Positions 21,749 to 52,944 of a stretch of 64,000 nt of DNA are shown in pieces. The notes under the pieces are model-generated. The model was not told the origin of the DNA and made no database searches. It worked only from the letters and a program-made list of their open reading frames with translations. The first letter of the stretch is position 1; every line of letters begins with the position of its first letter. The stretch is from Thauera aromatica K172 (lineage in GTDB: Bacteria; Pseudomonadota; Gammaproteobacteria; Burkholderiales; Rhodocyclaceae): positions 2,046,001 through 2,110,000 of the forward strand of contig NZ_CP028339.1 in NCBI RefSeq assembly GCF_003030465.1. Reading direction: 5' to 3'. The position numbers and the translations under genes are program-made.

Positions 21749-23140
<1,392 letters not shown>

Positions 23141-23182: not shown

Positions 23183-23205
23183 GGGGCGACCCACCGGGTC
23201 GCCCC
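23183..23205. repeat. Left flanking palindrome of the G-rich array
   Basis: GGGGCGACCC, loop ACC, GGGTCGCCCC: a perfect 10-bp stem, 42 bases after the serS stop. The same core recurs at 23643-23671 on the other side of the repeats. It could act as a transcription end for serS, although no T-run follows. Palindromes of this type resemble dispersed REP-like elements. Confidence 0.75.
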
Positions 23206-23220
23206 TACCGCCCGCCCGGG

Positions 23221-23524
23221 CGTCGGGGTGATCCGTGGGGTCGTCGGGTAATCCGCCGGGTCGTCGGGCGATTCGCCGGGGCATCGGGCGATTCGCCGGG
23301 GCGTCGGGTGATTTGCCGGGGCGTCCGGCGGTTCGTCGGGCCGTCGGGCGATTCGCCGGCGTCGTCGGGCAATTCGCCGGGGCGTCGGGCGATGCGCGGG
23401 GTCGTCGGGCGATTCGTCGGGTCGTCGGGGCGATTCGTCGGGTCGTCGGGCGATTCGCCGGGGCGTCGGGGGATTCGTCGGGCCGTCGGGTGATTCGCCG
23501 GCGTCGTTGGGCGATTCGCCGGGG
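23221..23524 (+). repeat. Minisatellite: 15 units of about 20 bp
   Basis: Fifteen head-to-tail units (eleven of 20 bp and four of 21 bp) follow the consensus CGTCGGGCGATTCGCCGGGG with one to several substitutions per unit. Each contains the small palindrome GGCGA-T-TCGCC. No credible gene lies here: an open frame spans the array but encodes only repeat-derived Gly/Arg/Ser-rich sequence, and it lacks a ribosome binding site. Confidence 0.9.
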
Positions 23525-23628
23525 CGTCGGGGCGTCGGGGCGTCGGGGCGTCGGGGCGTCGGGGCGTCGGGGCGTCGGGGCGTCGGGGCGTCGGGGCGTC
23601 GGGGCGTCGGGGCGTCGGGGCGTCGGGG
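23525..23628 (+). repeat. Perfect 8-bp tandem repeat, 13 copies (CGTCGGGG)n
   Basis: Thirteen identical copies of CGTCGGGG directly continue the 20-bp array. The octamer equals the 20-mer with its inner 12 bases deleted, so it probably arose from it by slippage between GGG runs. On the plus strand it gives 13 regularly spaced G4 runs with CGTC loops, a strong G-quadruplex pattern. Copy number is likely unstable. Confidence 0.95.
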
Positions 23629-23642
23629 CGGTTCGTGGGGTT

Positions 23643-23671
23643 GTAGGGGCGACCCGGCGGGTCGCCCCTAC
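23643..23671. repeat. Right flanking palindrome of the G-rich array
   Basis: GTAGGGGCGACCC, loop GGC, GGGTCGCCCCTAC: a perfect 13-bp stem. Its outermost TAG, read on the minus strand, is the stop codon of the lytic transglycosylase gene, so that gene ends inside the palindrome. Core identical to the left copy at 23183-23205. Confidence 0.85.
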
Positions 23672-25050
23672 CGTGGTCGGCCGAGAGAGAGGGCGGGCAG
23701 GTTCAGGGTGGACGAATACGGTGCTTCGAGCCGCATCAGGATGTCGTGGTAGCTGCGCACGTTCTCGGTCATCACCACGGCTTCACCACCCCGTGCCGCG
23801 CCAGATTTCAGGCGCGCGGCGTATTCCGGCCTCGACAGCAGGGGCAGCACCGACTTCAGGTCCCACCATGACAGATCGTCCTTGCCCTGGCTGCGGGCGA
23901 TGCTGCGTGCGCCGCTGAAGTGCCCCATGCCCAGGTTGTAGGCGGCGGTCGCCATCCACGAGCGGTCGGGTTCGGGGGCCTGTTCCGGCAGTTGCTCCCT
24001 GAGCATCGCCAGATAGCGCGCCCCGCCCAGGATGCTCTGGCGCGGATCGAGGCGGTTGGCGACACCGAGGCGATCGGCCGTGTCCGAAGTCAGCATCATC
24101 ATTCCGCGCACTCCGGTAGGGGAGGTGGCGTCCGGGTTCCAGTGCGATTCCTGGTAGGCGACCGCGGCCAGGTAACGCCAGTCGATTCCGGTCTGCGCCT
24201 CGGCCTCGTGGAAAAAAGCCCGGTAGCGCGGCAGGCGCTCGTGGATGCGGACGAGAAAAGTCGTGATGTCGGTGTCGTCGAGTCGGCGCACGTGGCCGAA
24301 ATGGCGGTCGGCCAAGCGCGCCAGCCGGCCGCTGCTGCGGGCCTCTTCGATGAAGGCGTCCACCGCCGCAGCCAGCTCGGGGTTGCCCAGCGGCATCGCC
24401 CAGGAAATCGATGAGCGTCCAGGCAGCTCGCGCACGATTGCCAGCTGCGGATGCACCCGCGAAGCGAAAGCGTAGTGCAGGCGGTCGGTGGCGACGAGGT
24501 CGAGCTCGCCGGCGGCAAGCTCCGCGAGCAGGGTTTCCTCGCCCGATCCGACCGGGAAACGCACGTCCAGGCTCGGCACACGCTTGCGGATCTGCGTCAG
24601 GTGCTCGGCGGCGAGTGAGCCGCGCCGGGCGCTGACGCTGCGGCCGGCGAGCCCGGCCTCGTCATCGATCGCCCCCGCGTCGGCGCGGCCGGCGATCACG
24701 TAATCGACCTCGCGCAGCGCCGCCGACCAGTGCAGCGGCAGGCGCTCGTTACGCCCCAGGCCGGCCGCTGCCAGGTGGGCCCGCCCCAGGATCACCGCAT
24801 CGAGCGCGCGGGTGGCGTCCGGATAGCGATCGAAGCGCACCGGAACCCCGAGCGCCTCGCCGAGCGCGAGCAGCAACTCGTATTCGAAGCCGCCGGCCTC
24901 GCCCTGCGCATCGAGGTGATACGAGATCGCATCGTGACGCGTCGCCACGCGCAGCTCGCCCAGGCTGCGGTAGTCGGCCAGCGGTAGCGCCTGCTGCGGC
25001 CCGCAGGCGGTGAGGAAGAGGGCGACCAGAGCGGTCAGCAGAAGGTGCAA
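23668..25050 (-). CDS. mltF: MltF-like membrane-bound lytic murein transglycosylase
   Basis: The 460-residue lipoprotein cleaves peptidoglycan with formation of 1,6-anhydro-muropeptides. A short signal ends in the lipobox LTAC (Cys16). Residues about 30-260 form a family-3 solute-binding (ABC-type) domain that regulates MltF. Residues about 275-420 form the SLT domain with catalytic Glu in YQESHWNPDATSPTGVRGMM and the AAYNLGMGH motif. The only start that leaves the lipobox near the N-terminus is TTG at 25050, with no good ribosome binding site. The C-terminus ends in a stop supplied by the flanking palindrome. Confidence 0.88.
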   Translation of the reverse strand: MHLLLTALVALFLTACGPQQALPLADYRSLGELRVATRHDAISYHLDAQGEAGGFEYELLLALGEALGVPVRFDRYPDATRALDAVILGRAHLAAAGLGRNERLPLHWSAALREVDYVIAGRADAGAIDDEAGLAGRSVSARRGSLAAEHLTQIRKRVPSLDVRFPVGSGEETLLAELAAGELDLVATDRLHYAFASRVHPQLAIVRELPGRSSISWAMPLGNPELAAAVDAFIEEARSSGRLARLADRHFGHVRRLDDTDITTFLVRIHERLPRYRAFFHEAEAQTGIDWRYLAAVAYQESHWNPDATSPTGVRGMMMLTSDTADRLGVANRLDPRQSILGGARYLAMLREQLPEQAPEPDRSWMATAAYNLGMGHFSGARSIARSQGKDDLSWWDLKSVLPLLSRPEYAARLKSGAARGGEAVVMTENVRSYHDILMRLEAPYSSTLNLPALSLGRPR

Positions 25051-51209: not shown

Positions 51210-52895
51210 ATGAGCGGGACCGGAAGTTCGCCCTACGATACGGGGCTGGAGCGCAATGCCGCCAATTACGCGGCGCTGACACCGCTGACCTTCATCGAGC
51301 GCAGCGCCGCCGTCTATCCGCAGCGGCTCGCTGTGATCCACGGGCGGCGGCGGTATACCTGGGCCGAGAGCTTCGCTCGCTCGCGGCGCCTGGCTTCGGC
51401 GCTGAAACAGCTCGGCGTCGGCCGCAACGATACCGTCGCGGTGATTCTCAACAACACGCCCGAGATGTTCGAATGCCATTTCGGCGTTCCCGCCTGTGGC
51501 GCGGTGCTCAACACCATCAACACCCGGCTCGACCCCGAGGCCGTCGCTTTCATCCTCGCGCACGCCGAGGCGAAAGTGCTGCTGGTCGATCGCGAATACG
51601 CCGCGGTGGCGAAGAAAGCGCTCGCGCTCGCCGGGCGCAGCGGCCTCGTCGTGATCGATGTCGACGACTCCGAGTACGTCGGCCCGGGCGAACGGCTGGG
51701 GCGGATGGACTACGAGGCGCTGCTCGCCAGCGGCAGCGAGGATTTTGTCTTCGAGTCGCCGGCCGACGAATGGGATGCGATCTCGCTGAACTACACTTCG
51801 GGTACCACCGGCGACCCGAAGGGGGTTGTGTACCACCACCGCGGCGCTTATCTCAACGCCTTGTCGAACATCGTCTCGTGGGGCATGCCGCCGCACGCGG
51901 TCTACCTGTGGACGCTGCCGATGTTCCACTGCAACGGCTGGTGCTTCGCGTGGTCGATGGCCGCCAACGCGGGCATCAACGTCTGCCTGCGCCGGGTCGA
52001 TCCGCGCCTGATCTTCGACGCCATCCGCGCCCATCGCGTCACCCACTACTGCGGCGCGCCGATCGTGCATTCGCTGCTGGCGAGCGCGCCCGCGGCCTGG
52101 CGTGAAGGGATCGACCATACCGTGCATGGCTTGGTCGCCGCCGCGCCGCCGCCGGCCGCGGTGATCGAGGGCATGGCCAGGATCGGCTTCGATCTCACCC
52201 ACGTCTATGGCCTGACCGAAACCTACGGCCCGGCCGCGGTGTGCGCCAAGCACGACGAATGGGCCGATCTGGCGCTGTCCGAGCAGGTCGCCCTCAACGG
52301 CCGCCAGGGCGTTCGCTACCACGCCCAGGAAGCGATCACGGTGATCGACCCGGACACCATGGAGCCGGTCCCGCGCGACGGCCGGACCATGGGCGAAGTC
52401 ATGTTCCGCGGCAATCTGGTGATGAAGGGCTACCTGAAGAATCCGCGGGCGACCGCCGAGTCGTTCCGCGGTGGCTGGTACCACACCGGCGATCTGGGGG
52501 TGCTGCAGCCCGATGGCTACGTCAAGATCAAGGACCGCGCCAAGGACATCATCATCTCGGGCGGAGAGAACGTGTCGTCGATCGAAATCGAGGACGTGCT
52601 CTACCGCCATCCCGCGGTGATGGCCGTGGCGGTGGTCGCGCTGGCCGACGAGAAGTGGGGCGAAGTGCCCTGCGCTTTCGTCGAACTGCGCGACGGGGCC
52701 GAAGCGGACGCCGCGGCGCTGCTCGCCCATTGCCGCGCGCACCTGGCCGGGTTCAAGATGCCGAAGAAGATCGTCTTCGGCGCCTTGCCCAAAACTTCGA
52801 CCGGCAAGATCCAGAAGTTCATGCTGCGCGAACGGGCGCAGTCGGCGGCAGCGTCCGGGGAGGGCGTCCCGCCGCGCGGCGGGGGCACGGAGTAG
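51210..52895 (+). CDS. Acyl-CoA synthetase (AMP-forming)
   Basis: This 561-residue enzyme of the ANL superfamily activates a carboxylic acid to its CoA thioester through an acyl-AMP. The P-loop-like YTSGTTGDPKGVVYHHRG, the A5 motif VYGLTETYGP, the hinge WYHTGDLGVLQPDGYVKIKD and the catalytic lysine in KTSTGKIQKFMLRE are all present. AAAGGAG is ideally placed before ATG 51210. The substrate (medium/long-chain or branched acid) cannot be fixed. Nearby acyl-CoA dehydrogenase and crotonase genes suggest fatty-acid catabolism. Confidence 0.9.
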   Translation: MSGTGSSPYDTGLERNAANYAALTPLTFIERSAAVYPQRLAVIHGRRRYTWAESFARSRRLASALKQLGVGRNDTVAVILNNTPEMFECHFGVPACGAVLNTINTRLDPEAVAFILAHAEAKVLLVDREYAAVAKKALALAGRSGLVVIDVDDSEYVGPGERLGRMDYEALLASGSEDFVFESPADEWDAISLNYTSGTTGDPKGVVYHHRGAYLNALSNIVSWGMPPHAVYLWTLPMFHCNGWCFAWSMAANAGINVCLRRVDPRLIFDAIRAHRVTHYCGAPIVHSLLASAPAAWREGIDHTVHGLVAAAPPPAAVIEGMARIGFDLTHVYGLTETYGPAAVCAKHDEWADLALSEQVALNGRQGVRYHAQEAITVIDPDTMEPVPRDGRTMGEVMFRGNLVMKGYLKNPRATAESFRGGWYHTGDLGVLQPDGYVKIKDRAKDIIISGGENVSSIEIEDVLYRHPAVMAVAVVALADEKWGEVPCAFVELRDGAEADAAALLAHCRAHLAGFKMPKKIVFGALPKTSTGKIQKFMLRERAQSAAASGEGVPPRGGGTE

Positions 52896-52944
52896 GGGAG
52901 GTGGAGTAGGGGGCGTGGAGTTGGGGGCGTAGAGTTGGGCCGGG
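52889..52944 (+). repeat. Four degenerate 14-bp tandem repeats
   Basis: Units GGAGTAGGGGAGGT, GGAGTAGGGGGCGT, GGAGTTGGGGGCGT and AGAGTTGGGCCGGG lie head to tail. The TAG stop of the acyl-CoA synthetase is in the first unit, so part of the array is coding. Like the array after serS, it is G-rich on the plus strand and starts at a gene's 3' end. Confidence 0.7.

Follow-up and report, generated by a model that had tools for sequence, protein, structure and literature searches.

GTAG-tagged REPs are short, GC-rich, dispersed palindromes with a GTAG end, often arranged as inverted pairs, with sites between convergent genes and also inside genes, where they have been reported from other species, uvrA included (PMC3733652). 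The GTAG-1 family of Thauera sp. MZ1T was noticed by means of a tandem-repeat database and forms arrays (PMC3733652). REPINs are REP doublets that form a hairpin, two inverted REPs enclosing a short spacer; the doublets of SBW25 are commonest at 71 and 110 bp, and what is repeated in the tandem clusters reported there is the whole REPIN or REP (PMC3116915). Bacterial minisatellites (VNTR loci) are built from imperfect head-to-tail units with nested higher-order repeats, and usually have no assigned origin. Dispersed families of quadruplex heptamers (GGGNATC) are described from Xanthomonas and Nostoc (PMC4692102).

In Thauera aromatica K172 (GCF_003030465.1), we analysed a stretch of 64,000 nucleotides (the window; contig NZ_CP028339.1, positions 2,046,001 to 2,110,000), in which a G-rich tandem array lies between two REP-type palindromes just after serS. 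We consider it likely that this locus is a lineage-specific, REP-bracketed minisatellite, that is, a REP doublet whose linker was amplified and now contains a younger, nested 8-bp burst. The sequence-only reading was confined to the array; the flanking palindromes lie outside its coordinates, and they define the element.

The serS gene (21848..23140, + strand; Pfam PF02403 and PF00587) encodes a seryl-tRNA synthetase with relatives 80-96% identical, and 42 bp separate its stop codon from the left palindrome (GGGGCGACCCACCGGGTCGCCCCTAC, 23183..23208, - strand). This copy has GTAG/CTAC at its inner, array-facing end only, the outer end being CCCC, and its hairpin of -12.7 kcal/mol was equalled by none of 200 shuffles. 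The right palindrome (GTAGGGGCGACCCGGCGGGTCGCCCCTAC, 23643..23671, + strand) is perfectly symmetric, with GTAG/CTAC at both ends and the GTAG paired with the CTAC. The two stand inverted to each other, 434 bp apart, with their GTAG ends inward. A convergent mltF-like gene (23668..25050, - strand), encoding a solute-binding domain and an SLT lytic transglycosylase domain, ends inside the right palindrome, its TAG stop being the CTA at 23668-23670. Its product terminates in LSLGRPR* here, against LRLGxxD* in most congeners.

All the traits given above for GTAG-tagged REPs recur here, down to the sites between convergent genes and in uvrA, and both copies are palindromes within the 20-40 bp of this class, with a GTAG end and hairpins of 10-13 bp. 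The GTAG is unpaired outside the stem in the left copy; the pairing of GTAG in the right copy is unlike classical GTAG REPs and counts against the REP-doublet reading, as does the spacing of the pair, which far exceeds that of known REP doublets. Compared with described families, the palindrome is also of greater length (13-bp stem), its symmetry is perfect and its copies are few, being dispersed over 20 sites when 100 or more are usual, and here it is the linker, not the REP, that forms the tandem unit. The enclosure of a spacer by two inverted REPs is shared with REPINs, although at 434 bp this spacer is not short and is tandemly repetitive. With VNTR loci, the array has in common the imperfect 20-bp head-to-tail units and the nesting of repeats, and it differs from them in being bracketed by REP palindromes, one of which is in register with it. 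An assignment to the CGTC-type REPs was rejected: the unit starts with CGTC, but its stem has 4-5 bp instead of 8-9 bp.

Between the palindromes, TRF on the window returned a 20-mer in 14.6 copies with 83% matches (23238-23531) and a perfect 8-mer in 13.9 copies (23520-23630). By hand parsing, the 20-mer units start at 23221 and the CGTCGGGG octamers number exactly 13. The array thus comprises about 15 imperfect units of 20-21 bp (CGTCGGGCGATTCGCCGGGG, 8+4+8) at 23221..23524 and 13 perfect octamers at 23525..23628, both on the + strand, which agrees with the roughly fifteen 20-bp units and thirteen identical octamers described in the sequence-only reading. A final 21-bp unit (CGTCGGGGCGGTTCGTGGGGT, 23621..23641, + strand), whose initial 8 bp are the 13th octamer, directly adjoins the GTAG end of the right palindrome. 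In fixed register, the 20-mers show a mean pairwise identity of 83% (65-100%), whereas the octamers are 100% identical; since the octamers are identical while the 20-mers have diverged, the octamer block should be younger or recently homogenised, and the slippage with recent homogenisation previously proposed fits the sequence. It had also been proposed that the octamer is the 20-mer minus its central 12 bases. Given as a description this is literally so, the unit being built as CGTCGGGC GATT CGCCGGGG (8+4+8), but a deletion step is unnecessary: the unit junctions at 23294, 23375, 23456 and 23517 already hold a near-identical octamer pair (the 8-bp near-tandem CGCCGGGG.CGTCGGGG), and slippage there would suffice. 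Doubled CGTCGGGG was not found in the rest of the window or in a 400-kb sample, taken as spaced stretches of the same genome (67% GC). A coding function was rejected, since neither period (20 or 8) is divisible by 3 and any ORF through the array is repeat-dependent. Elsewhere in the window, at 52881-52939, there is a short G-rich tandem repeat (GGAGTAGGGGACGT, 3.6 copies).

The octamer block is the 100-bp G4Hunter maximum of the window and the 400-kb sample (1.96 vs 1.71), and the predicted folding of the octamer RNA reaches -85.9 kcal/mol with quadruplexes against -66.6 without. The quadruplex potential claimed earlier is borne out in silico, where the predicted potential is strong; it is potential, not function. 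Unlike the heptamers of Xanthomonas and Nostoc (PMC4692102), the repeat is an octamer with G4 runs, is bracketed by palindromes and, in the window and the 400-kb sample, has one locus rather than forming a dispersed family. The G4Hunter maximum and the folding in favour of RNA quadruplexes, together with a 20-mer region that folds more strongly than its shuffles (z -2.98), would suit a regulatory element maintained by selection at the 3' end of serS, acting as a quadruplex transcription barrier, a terminator or an mRNA stabiliser. The array would also be well placed for such a role, on the sense strand 3' of serS, where the G-rich repeats of Xanthomonas are likewise enriched (PMC4692102). We find this explanation improbable, however, as all congeners with a readable serS 3' end manage without the array, the array region has no Rfam match, no promoter-like site and no intrinsic terminator-like site, and the octamer was not found at the other palindrome-side tandem units of this genome. 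The suggestion in the sequence-only reading that the array acts as a transcription barrier or as a serS 3' end is left unsupported on these grounds.

Less credible still is a phase-variable length element, in which the number of octamers would shift fast and alter the expression of serS or its neighbour. The thirteen identical octamers do indicate recent, probably ongoing, slippage, but the array lies downstream of serS and of its neighbour alike and contains neither a start nor a promoter-like site. As serS stops ahead of the palindromes and the neighbour stops within one, a change in length shifts no frame. The array is probably genome clutter with quadruplex potential and not a conserved serS control element. 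Most likely the element has no conserved function, and a putative local attenuation of transcription is possible. What this means for serS is that a supposed control element is removed.

The stop-to-stop gap between serS and the mltF-like gene measures 7-42 bp in the ten congeners that keep the convergent pair and 527 bp here. Neither array nor palindrome was found at the serS 3' end in any congener whose serS 3' end was readable, one of which is a weaker witness to absence than the others, its record (L050) stopping 88 bp past serS. The sister species (G041), whose SerS is the most similar (96% identical), likewise has neither palindrome nor array at its serS. Judged from these sequences, the palindrome/array insertion at serS is restricted to one species. 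In the sister species, most of the mltF-like gene downstream of serS has been lost, leaving a 68-bp remnant (L086).

The palindrome core has 20 exact sites in this genome, frequently paired, and allowing up to 3 mismatches gives 24 to 25 matches per strand. Among 28 congeners searched, it occurs six times in the sister species and once in G005, and was not found in the other 26; a further 368 genomes of the class gave no match at up to 1 mismatch. A plasmid or phage origin of the element was rejected, no match being obtained. The uvrA frame contains two palindromes, a 6.7-copy 21-bp array and one further palindrome, and it stays open across all of them (L034, G000:C1:77700-78360). Two of the sites that bear tandem units here, the one in uvrA and one near flagellar genes, have orthologues in the sister species, where the palindrome is single and no array accompanies it. 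Palindromes are dense among flagellar and repeated nuclease-transposase-like genes (L035 and L036, G000:C1:378000-399000), and several of the nuclease-transposase-like genes in this cluster carry it at the same end.

The locus could instead be an ordinary minisatellite, born independently by slippage, with the palindromes adjacent by coincidence. G-rich octamer arrays of the same sequence, with at least 4 copies, do occur in 35 other, unrelated DNA stretches from other species, mostly Actinobacteria, and none of the 35 contains this palindrome; a common origin with them was rejected for that reason. Nevertheless, three arrays of at least 5 copies are found within about 16 kb around palindromes, against a single weak one, a 13-mer, in the 400-kb sample (at least 5 copies and period of at least 8), and the Poisson probability of three arrays is 0.0003 even with the background set at 3 per 400 kb. 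Three further palindrome sites in this genome bear tandem units, and unit-like sequences (up to 3 mismatches) are palindrome-adjacent only throughout the genome, bar one match with 3 mismatches. Moreover, at four junctions (one in the window, two in L035 and one in L038) the units keep register with the palindrome's GTAG end, this register being the best rotation at three and tied best at the window junction, with the two L035 junctions possibly of shared descent. Similarity alone makes a weak case for the 20-mer as a decayed palindrome, since its score is reached in 68 of 1000 shuffles, and for this reason we used the register evidence alone. Congener G008 also presents the same architecture with a different REP. 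On all these counts, a coincidental neighbourhood seems unlikely to us.

For the REP doublet with an amplified linker, which we prefer, we suggest that an inverted pair of REP-type palindromes, GTAG ends inward, either arrived between serS and the mltF-like gene or arose there, the palindrome presumably being mobilised by a RAYT-type HUH transposase. The linker would have been amplified in tandem, initially as 20-21-bp units, and an 8-bp slippage burst nested in the final units would have been a later step. Tandem growth may have taken place by replication slippage on single-stranded DNA, aided by hairpins and quadruplexes. A RAYT-like transposase ORF is present at L038:4881-5570 (3.37 Mb), adjoined by transposition-type genes with an integrase core and an AAA ATPase. 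Its protein scores 64 bits, the NCBIfam cut-off being 80, and had no match among solved structures. A palindrome lies in frame (GATRRVAPT) and interrupts the protein, and 3' of the ORF an 8.3-copy 18-bp array runs into a second palindrome. The RAYT-like gene was not found in the sister species, which has palindromes, and co-occurrence of the two across congeners was not clean. The position of the ORF beside a palindrome with its own array supports the preferred reading; the low score, the interruption and the missing gene of the sister species speak against it.

A tandem of CGTMGGG with a period of 17-21 was found at three loci in 29 congeners, namely the window, L038 and one in G008; two of them abut this palindrome and one is bracketed by another REP. 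In G008, the array consists of 17 copies of a 19-bp G-rich unit and is flanked by inward-facing copies of that other REP (GTAGGAGCGCCGGCAGGCGCGAA), which numbers about 900 in the genome and resembles the described Thauera GTAG-1 family (5-bp stem; PMC3733652). Over 800 kb of G008, the linkers of inward-facing REPs cluster at 24-30 bp and then at about 54-65, 73-89, 99-108, 150 and 340 bp, whereas those of outward-facing REPs stay at 42-49 bp. Lengthened linkers are seen in 35 of 84 inward-facing pairs against 1 of 72 outward-facing ones, counts that are not independent events, as the REPs are clustered and copied, so that the Fisher value overstates independence. Many of the long linkers are internally repetitive, which their shuffled versions are not, and some of the lengthened ones may hold decayed REPs. 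Over the first 400 kb sampled from G008, no minisatellite of at least 4 copies is fully enclosed by REPs, and just one array, a small one, adjoins a REP; with so few REP-side arrays in the sample, strong expansion appears to be rare, which counts against the preferred reading.

Inward-facing REP pairs might then act as minisatellite nurseries, their linker being amplified stepwise in a manner tied to orientation, either by RAYT cleavage or as replication passes the doublet. We advance this tentatively, as an idea that deserves mention and that we would not yet favour. Just as speculative is the corresponding ladder, which would begin with single linkers and lead up to long G-rich arrays, the window locus being an extreme. 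The linker of a REP doublet could be a possible origin for some VNTR loci, and the orientation effect in G008 would be a clue to the action of RAYTs or replication on REP pairs, about which little in vivo evidence exists. Also in G008, REP doublets with 56-bp linkers are repeated at L233:9693-10650, where seven identical ones form a 150-bp tandem array. Finally, the second contig (G000:C2, 54 kb) starts with 12 kb of plasmid backbone (trfA and trb genes) that conjugative plasmids of E. coli and uncultured bacteria carry in identical form.
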